Assembly: GCF_007120195.1 (NCBI RefSeq)
Contig: NZ_SKOG01000160.1
Location: forward strand, 1 to 38,311
DNA: 38,311 nucleotides
Direction of reading: 5' to 3'
Source of the DNA: Aquisalimonas sp.
GTDB taxonomy: Bacteria; Pseudomonadota; Gammaproteobacteria; Nitrococcales; Aquisalimonadaceae
The translations under genes were made by a program, and so were the position numbers. The notes beneath the pieces are model-generated. The model was not told where the DNA came from, made no database searches, and was given only the letters and a program-made list of their open reading frames with translations. Of the stretch, positions 20,651 to 35,546 are shown in pieces. Every line of letters starts with the position of its first letter. The stretch's first letter is position 1.

Positions 20651-20713
20651 GCGATTCCCGCGGGCGCCAGAGCGGGCACGCTTGTGTTGCGTCGGGCACC
20701 GTTCGCCCGTCGT

Positions 20714-22387
20714 TCACGCGGATTCCGCCTTCTGCACCATCTCCGTGGCGTGCTCGACGGTCGCCTGGGTGAGTTCCATTCCGCCGAGCATACGCGCCAC
20801 TTCCTGAATGCGCTCTTTGCGGGCGAGTGGCGTCACGGTCGTGGCGGTGCTGTTGTTGGCCGTGCGCTTGTGCACCTGCATATGATGGTGCGCCTGTGAT
20901 GCCACCTGGGGCAGGTGGGTAACGCAAAGCACCTGGTGGTGCTGACCAAGGGCCCGCAATTGCCGCCCGACGACCTCTGCGACACCGCCGCCGATACCGG
21001 CGTCTGCCTCATCGAAAATGAGAGTCGGAATATGCGTCGTGCCGGCGGCCGCCACCTGGATGGCGAGGCTCAACCGTGAGAGCTCGCCGCCCGAGGCAAT
21101 GCGGTTGAGCGGACCGAAGGGTTGGCCGGCATTGGTGCGCACCTGGAAGTTGACGTCGTCCAGGCCGTGCGGTGTGGGCGTCGCGTTGTCTCGCGCCGAG
21201 ATATCGATGTGGAACGCGGCGCCGCCCATGCTGAGCTCTGCCAGCTGAGCAGTGACCCCCTGGGCAAGCTCCTCCGCCGCCGCCCGCCGGGCCGCATGCA
21301 GGCGTTGCGCCGTGGCTCGATAGGCTTCGGTCAGCCGTTGGTGCTGCTGCCGAAGTTCGGCCAGACGCTCCCCGCTGTGTTCAAGGTCATCGAGCTCGCG
21401 CCGCAGCCGATCGTAGACCTCGGCGAGTTCCTCTTCGCGGACATGGTGCTTGCGGGCCAGGTCGCTCAGCGTGCTGATGCGTTCCTCGACCTCGGTCAGC
21501 CGCCCGGGATCGAGTTCGAGGCCATCGGCGTAATTGCGGAGCCCGTCGACGGCGTCCTCCATCTGCGCCTGGGCACCGGTGAGCTGTTCGTGCATCTCCG
21601 CTAGTGCCGGGTCCTTGTCCAGCAGGCCGTCCAGCTCCCGGATAGCTTGGCCGATGATGGTTTGTGCCGAGTGCTCGTCCTCGTAGAGGCATTGCAGCAG
21701 CCGCTGGCTCGTCTCCGCCAGGGTGCCGGCGTGGGCCAGGCGCCGGTGCTCGGTGTTGAGGGCTTCCAGGGCCTCGGCGGACAGGTCCAGTGCCGCGAGT
21801 TCCTGGGTCTGATAGTCCAGGAGATCCCGGCGGGCGTCCTGGTCCTCGAAACCGCCCTGGAGGTGCTGCATGGCCCGCTCACACTCTTGCAGGTCCTTGA
21901 ACAAGCGTCCCACCTCGGCGGCGAGTTCGCCATTGCCCGCGTGGTTGTCGACAATCATGCGCTGGATATCTCGGCGCATCAGTGACTGGTGCTCGTGCTG
22001 GCCGTGGATGTCCACCAGGTACTCGCCCAGGTCGCGCAAGTGCTGCAGCGGCACCGGGCGGCCATTGATGAAGGCCCGCGAACGCCCGGTCGACTGGATC
22101 ACCCGGCGCAACAGGCACTCGCCGTCGTCGTCCAACTCCCGTTGCGCGAGCCAGGTCTGACATTCCGGCAGCGCTTCGATATCGAAGGCCGCGATGACCT
22201 CCGCACGCTCGGCGCCGGGACGGATGCTTTCCGCCGAAGCACGATCGCCCAGGGCCAGACCCAGGGCGTCCAGCAGTATGGATTTGCCCGCGCCGGTCTC
22301 CCCGGTGAGTGTGGTCATGCCCGAGCCGAAGTCCAGTTCCAGCTCATCGACGATAGCAAAGTCACGTACGTGCAGGTGATTCAGCAT
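20714..22387 (-). CDS. recN: DNA repair protein RecN
   Basis: 557 residues, the family length, from ATG 22387; the open frame extends up to 22474 but residues before MLNHLHVRDFAIVDELE are not RecN-like. SMC-like ATPase: Walker A TGETGAGKSILLDAL near residue 30, central coiled coils, then signature SGGELSRLSLA and Walker B TLIFDEADAGIGG. Acts in double-strand break repair. In many gammaproteobacteria recN is one of the strongest SOS genes; I found no CTGT-N8-ACAG box and only a half-match to the GTTC-N7-GTTC type of this window upstream. Confidence 0.96.
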   Translation of the reverse strand: MLNHLHVRDFAIVDELELDFGSGMTTLTGETGAGKSILLDALGLALGDRASAESIRPGAERAEVIAAFDIEALPECQTWLAQRELDDDGECLLRRVIQSTGRSRAFINGRPVPLQHLRDLGEYLVDIHGQHEHQSLMRRDIQRMIVDNHAGNGELAAEVGRLFKDLQECERAMQHLQGGFEDQDARRDLLDYQTQELAALDLSAEALEALNTEHRRLAHAGTLAETSQRLLQCLYEDEHSAQTIIGQAIRELDGLLDKDPALAEMHEQLTGAQAQMEDAVDGLRNYADGLELDPGRLTEVEERISTLSDLARKHHVREEELAEVYDRLRRELDDLEHSGERLAELRQQHQRLTEAYRATAQRLHAARRAAAEELAQGVTAQLAELSMGGAAFHIDISARDNATPTPHGLDDVNFQVRTNAGQPFGPLNRIASGGELSRLSLAIQVAAAGTTHIPTLIFDEADAGIGGGVAEVVGRQLRALGQHHQVLCVTHLPQVASQAHHHMQVHKRTANNSTATTVTPLARKERIQEVARMLGGMELTQATVEHATEMVQKAESA

Positions 22388-31242: not shown

Positions 31243-31842
31243 TCAATAACGCCGCATCTGTCCCACCACCACGCCCTGGATGCGTACGCGCCCTGGGTGG
31301 TAGTCCAGCGGGGCGTACGCGGCGTTGGCCGGATGCAGCCGGACGACGCCCGGGCGTTGCTCAATGCGTTTCAGGGTCGCCTCCTCGTCGTCCACCAGGG
31401 CAACGACGACTTCACCGTTGCGGGCGTGGTCGCGTTGCTCCACGACCACCCAGTCGCCGTCTAGGATGCCGTCGTCGCTCATGGAATCGCCTCGCACCTC
31501 GAGGACATAGCACGGCCCCTGCGTGCGCAGGGCGGCGGGAACCTGTATGCGGCTGTCGTGTGTGACGGCCTCGATCGGGCGTCCGGCTGCAATGCGGCCG
31601 AGCAAAGGCAGGCCATCCTCGTCGGGTATTGCCGCCTGTGTGAGTCGCACGCCCCGGTGCTGGCCGCCCATGGGTTCCACCAGCCCGGCGGCCACCAGCG
31701 CCCGAATGTGCTTGTGCAGTGAGCCACGCGAGCGCAGCCCCATGTCCCGGCAGATGGTATCGAGCGTTGGGGCGTGCTCCTCGGCCGCGCAGCCGCGGAG
31801 GTAGTCGAGGAGGTCTTGTTGGCGCGGGGTCAGGGATCGCAT
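31243..31842 (-). CDS. lexA: LexA-family SOS repressor
   Basis: 199 residues from ATG 31842. N-terminal winged helix at 1-67; the recognition helix region (MGLRSRGSLHKHIRALVAAG) departs from E. coli LexA. C-terminal S24 peptidase domain complete: cleavage pair Ala86-Gly87 in GRIAAGRPI, nucleophile Ser120 in RGDSMSDDG and Lys158 in EATLKRIE. When RecA filaments form, it cuts itself and frees SOS genes. It diverges from mrfA across 73 bases holding two GTTC-N7-GTTC repeats, which I take as its operators. Start lacks a clear ribosome site. A second LexA may exist elsewhere in the genome. Confidence 0.93.
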   Translation of the reverse strand: MRSLTPRQQDLLDYLRGCAAEEHAPTLDTICRDMGLRSRGSLHKHIRALVAAGLVEPMGGQHRGVRLTQAAIPDEDGLPLLGRIAAGRPIEAVTHDSRIQVPAALRTQGPCYVLEVRGDSMSDDGILDGDWVVVEQRDHARNGEVVVALVDDEEATLKRIEQRPGVVRLHPANAAYAPLDYHPGRVRIQGVVVGQMRRY

Positions 31843-31860
31843 GCACTGGAGCGTTTCATC

Positions 31861-31889
31861 TTGTCGGTTCTCTCTTTGTTCTCTACAGT
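31861..31889 (+). promoter_or_regulatory. Promoter of mrfAB
   Basis: -35 TTGTCG (31861-31866), 17-base spacer, -10 TACAGT (31884-31889). The spacer is filled almost exactly by the left LexA box. Confidence 0.55.
31867..31881 (+). promoter_or_regulatory. LexA operator, left box (GTTC-N7-GTTC)
   Basis: GTTCTCTCTTTGTTC: direct repeat of GTTC with seven bases between, the alphaproteobacterial LexA box. It lies between the -35 and -10 of the mrfA promoter and 25 bases before lexA. Confidence 0.75.
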
Positions 31890-31897
31890 ACCAGGGA

Positions 31898-31912
31898 GAA
31901 CAAAAGGAGAAC
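31898..31912 (-). promoter_or_regulatory. LexA operator, right box (GTTC-N7-GTTC, opposite strand)
   Basis: GAACAAAAGGAGAAC, which is GTTCTCCTTTTGTTC on the minus strand, almost the same word as the left box and in mirror orientation. It overlaps the mrfA ribosome site AAGGAG. Confidence 0.75.
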
Positions 31913-31915
31913 AGG

Positions 31916-34312
31916 ATGGCCGCCTCCCACGCCGTAGCGGAACCCGCACTGGAACCGGTTCGCCTACTGGTGAGCCGCCTGCAACGGAAATACGCAGGCC
32001 GAATCACCGGGCAGCTGGTGATACCGGCTCGGGAGGCACGCTACGCCGACATGCCCGATGGCCTGGACGCGGCGTTGCGCGGCGCGCTCAAAGCCCGCGG
32101 TATCAGCCGATTATACAGCCACCAGCGGCAAGCCTGGGAGGCCATCCGCGCCCGGCAGCACACGGTGGTGGTCACGCCAACGGCCTCGGGCAAATCCCTG
32201 TGCTACAACCTGCCCGTGCTTCAGAGCGCGATGGCCGAGGGCGGCAAGGCGTTGTATCTCTTCCCCACCAAAGCCCTGTCGCAGGATCAGGTGGCCGAGC
32301 TCACGGAGCTCAACCAGGCCGGTGGGCTAGGCGTGCGGGCGTATACCTTCGACGGCGACACACCCGGGGATGCCCGCAAGGCCGTGCGCACCCGGGGCGA
32401 TATCGTCGTTACCAATCCGGACATGCTGCACAAGGGCGTCTTGCCCCATCACACCAAGTGGGCACAGTTTTTTGAGAGCCTCCGGTACGTGGTCATCGAC
32501 GAGACGCATACCTACCGTGGCGTGTTTGGCTCCCACGTGGCCAACGTCATGCGGCGGCTGCGCCGGGTCTGTCGTTTCTATGGCGCTGATCCGGTGTTCA
32601 TTCTGTCGTCGGCCACGATCGCCAATCCCGGGGAGCTGGCGGCGGAGCTGGTGGGCGAGCGCGTGACTGCCATTACCGACAGTGGAGCACCGGCAGGGGA
32701 GAGGCAGCTGCTGTTGTGGAATCCACCGGTGATCAACCCTGAGCTCGGGATTCGCGCCTCCTCCCGTTCCCAGAGCACGCGCATTGCACGCATGGCTGTG
32801 CGCGCGGGGCTCAAGTCTATCGTCTTCGCCCGCAGCCGGCTCATGGTCGAGGTGATCACCAAGTACCTGAAGGATGTCTTCGACAGCGATCCACGCAAGC
32901 CCACGCGGGTGGCGGCGTATCGCGGCGGCTACTTGCCCGGCGAACGGCGGGAGACGGAGCGAGCGTTGCGGGCCGGGAAGGTCGACTGTGTTGTCGCCAC
33001 CTCCGCGCTGGAGCTCGGCGTTGATATCGGTGCCCTGGATGTGTGTGTGCTCGACGGCTATCCGGGTACCATCGCGGCCACCTGGCAGCGCCTGGGGCGT
33101 GCCGGTCGTCGCAATCGCACGGCGCTGGGCGTGCTGGTGGCCTCCAGCCAGCCGTTGGATCAATACATTGTGCGCAATCCCGATTTCTTCCTCGGCGCCT
33201 CGCCGGAACACGCCCGGATCGATCCGGATCAGCTGCTGATTCTGCTGGATCACGTTCGCTGCGCAGCCTTCGAGCTGCCGTTTCGCCAGGGCGAGTGCTT
33301 TGGAGGCGCGAACGTGGAAGCGCTGCTCGCTTATCTGGAAGAGCAGGGCGTGCTCCATCGTGAGGGCGATCGCTGGCACTGGACGGAGGACAGCTACCCC
33401 GCTAACAGCGTCAGTCTGCGCTCCGTGGCGGAGGGGAATTTCGTGGTCGTCGATGTCACGCACGGCGGGCAGCGGATCGTCGCCGAGGTGGACTACTCGA
33501 GCGCGGCAGAAACGCTCTACGAGGGGGCCATTTACCTGATCCAGGCGAGCCCGTACCAAGTCGAGACCCTGGACTGGGAGGGTCGCAAGGCCTGGGTGCG
33601 CCAGACCCGCGCGGACTATTACACCGACGCCATCGAGTACACACGGCTCAAGGTGCTGGAGAGCTTCGAGAGTGCGCAGGGGGAACGCTCCCAGGCCGCC
33701 AACGGCGAAGTGCACCTGGTGCGCCGCATCCCCGGGTTCAAGAAAATCCGCTACTACACCCACGAGAATATCGGCTACGGCAACATCAACCTGCCGGACC
33801 AGGAGATGCACACCACCGCCGTCTGGTGGGAGGTGCGGCCAGACGCACTGGCTTGGGCCTTCCCGAGCCGCCAGGAAGCGCTGGACGGCTTTCTGGGCGC
33901 CGCCCACGCCATGCATCATGTGGCGGCACTGCGGGTGATGTCTGAGCCCGCCGATCTCGGCCGGGCCGTGGGGGACGGCAATGCCCGCTGGTTTGCGACC
34001 ATCGGCCCCGCCGGACGCGGGCAGATTCGAAGCTTCAACAACGGCGTCATGGATCCGCAGCAGGAGCAGCGTTTCCGCCCGGCTGTATTCCTGTATGACA
34101 ACTACCCGGGCGGTGTGGGCTTGTCGGCGCCCCTCTACGAGCAGCGTCAGACCGTGGTGGATGCCGCCCGGGCACTTGTTGCCGCGTGCGGCTGCCAGTT
34201 CGGCTGTCCCGGTTGTATTGGTCCCATTCTGGCCGCGGACGAGCAGCGGGGCTTCTCGCCGCGGGCAGCGGCTTTGCGGGTGCTGGAGCTGTTGAGCGGT
34301 GATGGACCTTAA
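31916..34312 (+). CDS. mrfA: MrfA/YprA-type DEAD/DEAH helicase
   Basis: 798 residues; AAGGAG six bases before ATG 31916. Superfamily 2 helicase: TPTASGKS at 87-94, DETH at 195-198 followed by TYRGVFGSHVANV, SATIANPGE near 232, and WQRLGRAGRRNR as motif VI. A long C-terminal DUF1998-like domain ends in four Cys (758, 760, 764, 767) in CGCQFGCPGC, the Zn-binding signature of MrfA. In Bacillus subtilis MrfA works with the nuclease MrfB to remove mitomycin C damage independently of UvrABC. The next gene here is the MrfB homologue, overlapping by 11 bases, which makes the assignment strong. Divergent from lexA with shared operators. Confidence 0.92.
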   Translation: MAASHAVAEPALEPVRLLVSRLQRKYAGRITGQLVIPAREARYADMPDGLDAALRGALKARGISRLYSHQRQAWEAIRARQHTVVVTPTASGKSLCYNLPVLQSAMAEGGKALYLFPTKALSQDQVAELTELNQAGGLGVRAYTFDGDTPGDARKAVRTRGDIVVTNPDMLHKGVLPHHTKWAQFFESLRYVVIDETHTYRGVFGSHVANVMRRLRRVCRFYGADPVFILSSATIANPGELAAELVGERVTAITDSGAPAGERQLLLWNPPVINPELGIRASSRSQSTRIARMAVRAGLKSIVFARSRLMVEVITKYLKDVFDSDPRKPTRVAAYRGGYLPGERRETERALRAGKVDCVVATSALELGVDIGALDVCVLDGYPGTIAATWQRLGRAGRRNRTALGVLVASSQPLDQYIVRNPDFFLGASPEHARIDPDQLLILLDHVRCAAFELPFRQGECFGGANVEALLAYLEEQGVLHREGDRWHWTEDSYPANSVSLRSVAEGNFVVVDVTHGGQRIVAEVDYSSAAETLYEGAIYLIQASPYQVETLDWEGRKAWVRQTRADYYTDAIEYTRLKVLESFESAQGERSQAANGEVHLVRRIPGFKKIRYYTHENIGYGNINLPDQEMHTTAVWWEVRPDALAWAFPSRQEALDGFLGAAHAMHHVAALRVMSEPADLGRAVGDGNARWFATIGPAGRGQIRSFNNGVMDPQQEQRFRPAVFLYDNYPGGVGLSAPLYEQRQTVVDAARALVAACGCQFGCPGCIGPILAADEQRGFSPRAAALRVLELLSGDGP

Positions 34313-35546
34313 GACGCGTTTGCACACCCTGCGTGAGCAGGCTGGCGCCGCAGCGCCGGGTACGCGTGCAGGGAAACCCGACGGGGAGAAAAGCCCCAGC
34401 AGCGCCGGGCTGCAGCAGCGGCTTGCCCGGATGCGGGCTGCTGGAGCGCCTGTTCGCCAGCCGGGTGTGGGTGGCGCTGATCCAGCGGCCCTGGCTGCGG
34501 AGTTGGGTGCCGAGCAGGTGGCGCCAGGGGTTTTGTGCATAGACCAAGACCAGGGTCTGGGTGAGTTCCATGGGGCTGTGGCGTTACCGGACCCTGGGTC
34601 TCGGGTCCGGGTTCCGGGGCTGCCGGATGTGTCCCTGGGTGAGCTGGCTTTTGTCGACACGGAAGCCAGCGGCCTTGCCGGGGGCACGGGGACACTCGCA
34701 TTCAATGTCGGCCTTGTCCGCTGGCACGACGGCCGCTGGTGCACGCGGCAGTATCTGCTCACCGGCTTCGCGGGTGAGGCCGCGATGCTAACCGCGCTGG
34801 CGGATGACCTCCGTGAGCCGGGCGGACTGGTGACCTACAACGGCAGCAGCTTCGATTTGCCCCTGCTGCGCGATCGATACCGCCTGAATGCTTGGCGCGA
34901 AGCACCGCTGCCGGGGCAGCATTTGGATCTGTTGCATCCGCTGCGGCGGTTGTACCGCCGCCAATGGCCCGATTGCCGGCTGGCCACGGCCGAGGCCCGG
35001 TTGCTGGGGCTCAGGCGCACCGACGATTTGCCGGGCAGCCAGGTGCCGACCGTGTGGTTTGACTGGATCCACCGGGGTGAGGGGCGACGCATGGCCGATG
35101 TCCTGCGTCACAACCGGCTGGATGTTCGCTCGTTACTGGCGCTGATTTCCCTGCTCGCAGGCGTTGTGCGCGAGCCGGAATCGCTCGGAGCAGACCCGCT
35201 GGGCGCCGCCAGAATCTGGTGCCGGCACGGGCACGAGGAGCGTGCTCTGCATATTCTTGATGCGGCAAACGAGCTGAGTGGCCCGGGCCTGCTTGAGCTG
35301 GCGCGGCTGTGGCGGCGTGTCGGCCGGATCGACGATGCCGTGGCGATCTGGGAGCGGCTGGCGAGCGAAGGCTGTCCGCATTCCCTCGAGCAGTTGGCGA
35401 AATTTCACGAGCACGTCCGCGGTGATCTGCGAACGGCGCTGGCGCTCACTGAGCGCCTGCCCGCCGGGGATGCCACTGAACGTCGCCGCACCCGGCTGCG
35501 GCGACGCCAAAAGGCAGACCAGGATGGCTGCGGTTCGACCCGGTAG
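34302..35546 (+). CDS. mrfB: MrfB/YprB-type DEDD exonuclease
   Basis: 414 residues. Variable, Arg/Ala-rich first 110 residues; RNase H-like exonuclease core with Asp119 and Glu121 in FVDTEASGL, Asp185 in YNGSSFDLPLL, and His270 with Asp274 in LRHNRLDVRSL, matching a DEDDh nuclease; then a helical, TPR-like C-terminus (LELARLWRRVGRIDDAVAIW). In B. subtilis MrfB is the nuclease partner of the helicase MrfA. The ATG at 34302 (or GTG 34299) lies inside the end of mrfA, so translation is coupled. No further gene belongs to the operon; the next gene is convergent. Confidence 0.9.
   Translation: MDLKTRLHTLREQAGAAAPGTRAGKPDGEKSPSSAGLQQRLARMRAAGAPVRQPGVGGADPAALAAELGAEQVAPGVLCIDQDQGLGEFHGAVALPDPGSRVRVPGLPDVSLGELAFVDTEASGLAGGTGTLAFNVGLVRWHDGRWCTRQYLLTGFAGEAAMLTALADDLREPGGLVTYNGSSFDLPLLRDRYRLNAWREAPLPGQHLDLLHPLRRLYRRQWPDCRLATAEARLLGLRRTDDLPGSQVPTVWFDWIHRGEGRRMADVLRHNRLDVRSLLALISLLAGVVREPESLGADPLGAARIWCRHGHEERALHILDAANELSGPGLLELARLWRRVGRIDDAVAIWERLASEGCPHSLEQLAKFHEHVRGDLRTALALTERLPAGDATERRRTRLRRRQKADQDGCGSTR

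Follow-up and report, generated by a model that had tools for sequence, protein, structure and literature searches.

A mirror pair of GTTC direct repeats as the predicted operator of a second LexA beside the mrfAB repair genes in a gammaproteobacterium

The GTTC-N7-GTTC direct repeat is given as the LexA operator of Caulobacter and the Alphaproteobacteria in Table 1 of PMC9578287 and in passages of PMC8565304. Dual LexA systems are described for Pseudomonas putida and Xanthomonas in parts of PMC9578287 and PMC5261740, with a lexA2-imuABC arrangement in P. putida. How a LexA operator can change while the SOS response stays intact is an open question, for which PMC8565304 proposes a model in which LexA is duplicated, its motif diverges and the regulon is taken over. 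The MrfAB pair repairs mitomycin damage in Bacillus subtilis according to excerpts of PMC11194089, PMC12458937 and PMC6051672. Searching the main texts of both PMC11194089 and PMC12458937 for the word 'SOS' gave no match, and no LexA dedicated to MrfAB appeared in the titles or abstract openings among the matches listed for the open-licence literature. Here we analyse a locus of Aquisalimonas sp. in which mrfAB lies divergently beside a second lexA gene, with a mirror pair of GTTC-type boxes between them. Judging from sequence comparison, this pair very probably serves a second, dedicated LexA (LexA2) as its operator, through which lexA2 and mrfAB would be induced separately from the canonical regulon.

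The box pair and the genes around it

The window, i.e., the whole stretch of 38,311 nucleotides that was analysed, was searched for the pattern and contained an exact GTTC-N7-GTTC at 31867-31881 of the plus strand (GTTCTCTCTTTGTTC) and another at 31898-31912 of the minus strand (GTTCTCCTTTTGTTC), separated by 16 bases, just as the initial annotation had reported. In the extended form GTTCTC-N5-GTTCT, assigned from sequence and comparison, the predicted LexA2 box 1 occupies 31867-31882 (plus strand) and box 2, its mirror copy, 31897-31912 (minus strand), with 30 bp from start to start. By consensus reading, the mrfA promoter consists of the −35-like hexamer TTGTCG (31861-31866, plus strand; a TTG-box-TA pattern is seen in related loci), a 17-bp spacer (31867-31883) that is filled by box 1, and the −10-like hexamer TACAGT (31884-31889, plus strand). 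The sequence GGAG at 31906-31909, inside the plus-strand side of the minus box, precedes the mrfA ATG at 31916 and is likely the Shine-Dalgarno sequence of this gene. The consensus promoter reading and the position of GGAG bear out the earlier placement of one box in the −35/−10 spacer of mrfA and of the other on its ribosome site. No clear lexA2 promoter was evident in the window. A reading frame of nine codons (ATG AAA CGC ... TGA) at 31830-31859 of the minus strand runs across the start codon of lexA2 in a different frame and could be a leader peptide or a product of chance.

The bare GTTC-N7-GTTC motif was present three times in the window versus 0.95 expected, and at least three occurrences were reached in 8 of 100 shuffles. 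Mirror pairs within 60 bp were much rarer, with one in total over 400 simulated first-order Markov windows. The third occurrence in the window, at 20701-20715, has no partner box and is probably due to chance.

The lexA2 gene (31243-31842, minus strand, start at 31842) encodes a LexA of 199 aa that scored above the cut-offs of TIGR00498 (164 bits, cut-off 111), PF01726 (42 bits, cut-off 23.7) and PF00717 (104 bits, cut-off 23.3), and has both the LexA winged helix-turn-helix DNA-binding domain and the S24 peptidase domain. Its Ala86-Gly87, Ser120 and Lys158 align with the cleavage site and the Ser/Lys dyad of E. coli LexA, respectively. The recognition-helix segment, SRGSLHKHI, begins at residue 38 and differs from that of E. 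coli LexA (chain 7b5g) in the alignment (S-R-G-S-L-H-K-H versus S-P-N-A-A-E-E-H). Downstream of lexA2 lies glcB (malate synthase G), so that lexA2 is placed between glcB and mrfA. The mrfA gene (31916-34312, plus strand) encodes a YprA/MrfA-type DEAD helicase of 798 aa with an MZB zinc domain (PF00270, PF00271, PF09369, PF22982), matching the YprA structure 6znp with an E-value of 6.6e-224. The end of mrfA is overlapped by mrfB (34299-35546, plus strand), which encodes an exonuclease (PF13482) matching the MrfB structure 8un9 with an E-value of 1.5e-27, the DTE, FD and HN..D motifs being aligned. The pair thus consists of a YprA-type helicase with MZB and a DEDDh exonuclease of the MrfB type, as expected of MrfAB, for which we infer a role in mitomycin damage in this organism.

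The genome encodes another LexA, on contig C114, which is 37% identical to LexA2 and has an E. coli-type helix (SPNAAESHL); S24 and LexA DNA-binding domains are present in both proteins. The canonical lexA adjoins imuA (NF033429, 217 bits, cut-off 150), and its best box, CTGTATATATTACCAG, has one mismatch to CTGT-N8-ACAG and is located 35 bp before the start. Within 200 bp of this gene, no GTTC box with fewer than three mismatches was found. The second lexA does not form one operon with imuAB/dnaE2, as imuA sits by the canonical lexA instead. With two LexAs of different predicted operator types, the bacterium seems to possess two distinct SOS repressors. The initial annotation had implied a single gammaproteobacterial LexA with altered specificity; the helix comparison upheld that the recognition helix departs from that of E. 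coli-type LexAs, but the single LexA did not stand, since a canonical LexA with a CTGT-type box is also present. Upstream of the canonical lexA (L010), a short segment is bordered on its two sides by a long inverted repeat, GTGTCCTGTAACCGAAATTCGTTGTCTTTT and the complementary copy, which looks like a small MITE-type element.

Operator type and recognition helix of LexA proteins

LexA2 is predicted to read GTTC boxes mainly because the type of box tracks the type of recognition helix across lexA promoters. The 200 bp upstream of 148 lexA loci (151 minus the upstream-DNA duplicates L013, L020 and L028), which had been picked on protein similarity and not on operator, were sorted by the helix of the encoded protein; start codons were set by alignment and positions are approximate. 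GTTCT-N6-GTTCT and CTGT-N8-ACAG were scored at up to one mismatch, and the GTTC-N7-GTTC core as an exact match. For the window-type helix, S[RK]G[STV], GTTCT-N6-GTTCT was present in 54 of the 58 promoters and the CTGT box in four; four promoters of this type were without the GTTCT box by these criteria. The alpha-type helix went together with the exact core in 58/60 promoters, with the longer form in 33/60 and with the CTGT box in 3/60. Promoters of E. coli-type lexA genes carried neither GTTC form (0/24), and CTGT-N8-ACAG was found in 23 of them. Six loci fell into no helix class, two of which had a GTTC box, and one counted box (L185) sits at −199. In off-promoter control windows, the frequencies were 2/752 for the GTTCT form, 6/752 for the core and 27/752 for CTGT. 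These data agree with the earlier assignment of the boxes to the GTTC direct-repeat type of LexA operator, and LexA2, with a predicted direct-repeat operator ahead of its own gene, belongs to this class. They provide a compact helix-to-operator rule, in which S[RK]G[STV]..H goes with GTTC repeats and S.NAAE with CTGT palindromes. A Y-family polymerase gene follows the GTTC-type lexA in two Thiodiazotropha loci, L198 (PF00817) and L215.

The tree of 68 LexAs comprised 22 LexA2 rows (two of them identical), 17 alphaproteobacterial, 17 canonical and 12 other sequences. LexA2 and the alphaproteobacterial proteins formed separate groups with 100/99 each, and the canonical LexAs lay opposite both across a 100/100 branch, values read from a bootstrap that had not settled. 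LexA2, the alphaproteobacterial and the other gammaproteobacterial LexAs stood together opposite the canonical ones (100/100), in an order that the tree does not fix. A place of LexA2 inside the alphaproteobacterial LexA clade was therefore rejected, as it forms its own clade; by sequence, LexA2 is alphaproteobacterial-like at its predicted operator and not a member of that clade.

Linkage to mrfA, operator exchange and extent of the predicted regulon

A LexA2-type match (57-100% identity) was found in 12 of 59 genomes, including the source genome. All 12 had a second LexA match (37-43% identity), the helix of which was read for the source genome and, through L190, for G002, and in all 12 mrfA was the divergent neighbour of lexA2. 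For the class survey, 369 genomes of the class were drawn evenly and the first candidates per genome were scored (LexA2-like matches with E-values up to 1e-48, mrfA up to 1e-150). LexA2-like matches occurred in 33 genomes (48-100% identity, a range reaching low enough for some to fall outside the LexA2 clade), mrfA in 17 and both in 13 (Fisher p 3.6e-12). The two genes were divergent neighbours in 11 of these 13 genomes, and 20 of the 33 genomes with a LexA2-like match were without mrfA at the cut-off. Several LexA2-like genes per genome were observed in G319 (three) and in G192, G306 and G066 (two each), with only some of them adjoining mrfA. In the Thiodiazotropha genome G074, there are two different GTTC-type LexAs (L173 and L186), one beside mrfA and the other in a locus lacking mrfA; GTTCTC-type boxes accompany both, and cross-talk between the two LexAs is possible.

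The operator layout was compared across 26 loci with divergent lexA2 and mrfA, each from a different genome; L013 was left out as the same record as L099. The plus (mrfA-oriented) box was present in 22 loci, the minus box in 21 and both in 17. The start-to-start distance was 30-32 bp in 15 of the 17 two-box loci, and 35 and 39 bp in the other two. A TTG no more than seven bases before the plus box, together with TA after a 17-bp spacer, was found in 20 of the 22 loci with this box, which indicates that the mrfA promoter has the operator as an integral part. Position 6 of the box was C in 43/43 boxes; the boxes had been chosen at up to one mismatch to GTTCT-N6-GTTCT, so that the letters of this pattern are conserved partly by construction, which does not apply to position 6, as it lay outside the search pattern. 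Mirror pairs were also located upstream of lexA genes whose loci lack mrfA (e.g., L016, L017, L028 and L033), and the pair therefore seems to be an autoregulatory site as well. In G155, lexA2 and mrfA are on different contigs, and the mirror pair is kept at mrfA, with no lexA in that locus. The genes are also apart in G205, where a degenerate box was the only one recognised by eye at mrfA.

The mrfA gene was detected in 20 of the 59 genomes, eight of which are without LexA2. Two of these, the congeners G001 and G004, have mrfA directly adjoining glcB and carry canonical boxes at the mrfA promoter (CTGGCATTATATACAG and CTGTCTTTTTATACAG, respectively). A weight matrix built from 23 canonical lexA boxes gave scores of 16.4 (G001) and 15.7 (G004), versus a 99.9% point of 10.9 for a null of 170-bp windows from the analysed loci with known sites not removed; the mrfA promoters of 6 of the 12 lexA2 genomes scored from −9.1 to 4.9. 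In the mrfA tree (29 rows, built without G012, G061, G066, G108, G334 and the mrfA of G019, G020, G025, G029, G033 and G035), G001 and G004 grouped with the lexA2-bearing congeners (100/100). The order glcB-lexA2-mrfA is also present in G006, of another genus. Loss of lexA2 and take-over by the canonical LexA is the simpler reading in view of this tree and the gene order in G006. The remaining six LexA2-less genomes (G019, G020, G025, G029, G033 and G035) had no canonical-like box within 170 bp of mrfA (best scores −10.4 to 0.9), and the predicted damage control of mrfA is therefore not universal. In these genomes outside the genus, no canonical box at up to one mismatch was found within 400 bp in G019, G025, G029, G033 and G035, and G020 has an exact CTGT-N8-ACAG 353 bp upstream of mrfA. 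At the same mismatch limit, G236, G344 and G437, also outside the genus, had no canonical box within 350 bp of mrfA, and the G108 locus begins inside mrfA. In G020 (C87:84590-86949), mrfA is seen as two matches, one with an in-frame TGA, and in L015 (G061) as two overlapping pieces; these are possibly broken copies or assembly errors.

Perfect matches to GTTCTC-N5-GTTCT in the 4.05-Mb draft source genome numbered two, both being the window pair, versus one for the reversed-pattern control. A search with the pattern at up to two mismatches gave 16 matches versus 7 in the control, mostly background. Across the 12 dual genomes, 25 perfect matches comprised 17 at lexA2-mrfA and eight elsewhere, and the reversed pattern gave five. 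The perfect boxes elsewhere are thus near the control level, so that lexA2 and mrfAB look like the sole members of the regulon, and a wide GTTC regulon in the source genome was rejected for the strict pattern. The relaxed GTTCT-N6-GTTC occurred 24 times in the source genome, 22 of them outside the locus (reversed control 15); 17 of the 22 lie inside ORFs by the GC3 rule, and no repair gene was recognised by eye alongside the other five. Upstream of recA (L011, contig C185), neither a CTGT-N8-ACAG-like nor a GTTC-type box was present within 400 bp (best matches with three and four mismatches, respectively). LexA2 hence seems to guard little beyond its own gene and one adjacent DNA-repair gene pair. 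The initial annotation had expected a GTTC-N7-GTTC scan to define an SOS regulon, an expectation contradicted by the near-control counts of the strict motif and by the result for recA. It had further held that absence of the motif before all other SOS genes would refute its reading; no such site was found with the patterns searched, yet binding at this locus is not thereby refuted, because LexA2 is a second, dedicated LexA.

Four genomes of Methylococcaceae or Methylomicrobium (G062, G063, G065 and G068) gave a single LexA match each, to a protein from the LexA2 clade; the lack of others may reflect assembly gaps. The motif precedes umuD in two places in Methylomicrobium G065 and also in G068, in which umuC lies behind umuD; none was found at umuD in G062 or G063. 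Ten genomes with GTTC-type LexAs contained 36 perfect boxes (15 at a lexA, three at umuD and 18 elsewhere), versus 14 in the control. This suggests, at the level of sequence, that the LexA2 family may act as the SOS repressor where it is alone.

Proposed mechanism, rival explanations and known systems

On the reading that we prefer, LexA2 would bind each GTTCTC-N5-GTTCT direct repeat. On the plus box it would occupy the −35/−10 spacer of mrfA and keep RNA polymerase off, and on the minus box it would cover the mrfA start region; both boxes together would also cover the region upstream of lexA2. Two LexA2 dimers could share one face of the DNA, because the boxes are approximately three helical turns apart. 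Upon DNA damage, RecA would be activated and LexA2 would cleave itself at Ala86-Gly87, after which lexA2 and the mrfAB repair operon would be induced together, apart from the canonical CTGT-N8-ACAG regulon of the other LexA.

Repeats arisen by chance, or a site for some unrelated regulator, deserve next to no weight. Bare GTTC-N7-GTTC is common, as the shuffles of the window illustrate, and its count alone would have been insufficient; chance is rejected by the comparison of lexA promoters by helix, with the box in 54/58 promoters of this LexA type against 2/752 control windows, together with the Markov simulation. It is also highly improbable that the canonical LexA of the genome owns the boxes by binding both site types. 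Both LexAs are present, with the same two domains, but none of the 24 promoters of E. coli-type lexA genes has a GTTC box, the source genome's own canonical lexA has CTGTATATATTACCAG at −35 and GTTC matches with at least three mismatches within 200 bp, and the two congeners without LexA2 bear a canonical box at mrfA instead.

The mirror pair could serve lexA2 autoregulation only, with mrfA as a bystander in the shared intergenic space, and the pairs before lexA genes in mrfA-less loci (L016, L017, L028 and L033) are consistent with this. We regard it as unlikely, given that the mrfA-side box fits the TTG-17-TA promoter in 20/22 loci, that G155 retains the pair at mrfA away from lexA2, and that a canonical LexA box is present at the mrfA promoter in two lexA2-less congeners. 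A tentative possibility, to be taken more seriously, is that LexA2 is a wider second SOS regulator, reaching more genes by way of weaker or diverged sites not caught by the strict pattern. In G065 and G068, whose only LexA match is of the LexA2 type, the box ahead of umuD points in this direction, as do the 22 further relaxed sites in the source genome versus 15 in the reversed control and the eight perfect boxes elsewhere in the dual genomes versus five; against it, 17 of the 22 further sites lie in ORFs and the other five are beside no repair gene recognised by eye. The dedicated-operator reading can be extended to a private, orthogonal SOS circuit, a proposal on which our judgement is evenly divided. 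LexA2 of dual-LexA gammaproteobacteria would then run a single bidirectional promoter (lexA2 and mrfAB), insulating this pathway from the main regulon; control would have been handed back to the canonical LexA upon lexA2 loss in two sister species, and LexA2 would be the sole LexA in methanotrophs, over umuD in two of them. If this is true, these genomes would be snapshots of the postulated route of LexA operator turnover. Congeners whose mrfA promoter bears either a LexA2 or a canonical box, and the lineages with a LexA2-type protein as the only LexA match, constitute a natural test set.

Among known systems, the alphaproteobacterial LexAs share with LexA2 the direct-repeat core of the operator and the helix pattern S-[RK]-x-x-x-H-[RK]. 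In contrast to them, LexA2 forms a separate clade with 35-40% identity to the alphaproteobacterial matches, its box is the extended GTTCTC-N5-GTTCT, mostly as a mirror pair, and LexA2 occurs alongside a canonical LexA and is linked to mrfAB. The dual systems of P. putida and Xanthomonas, in the portions of the literature describing them, likewise have two LexAs with independent operators per cell, the second LexA of P. putida being tied to one DNA-damage operon. Here, the partner is the divergent mrfAB rather than a co-transcribed imuABC, and imuA is beside the canonical lexA. The operator of the P. putida LexA2, GTAC-N4-GTGC, is also unlike the box described here. Similarly to the locus studied, MrfAB (YprAB) of B. 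subtilis is a helicase and a DEDDh exonuclease encoded by neighbouring genes (excerpts of PMC11194089 and PMC12458937), whereas here a dedicated LexA is encoded next to mrfAB. The locus thus connects this repair pair, familiar from Bacillus, with a predicted damage-responsive repressor in Gammaproteobacteria. In line with the model of PMC8565304, as set out in its relevant passages, LexAs with different motifs coexist, and elsewhere the diverged type is found alone with umuD downstream of the motif; what is new here is that congeners differ in the operator of a single promoter, where PMC8565304 offers a model.
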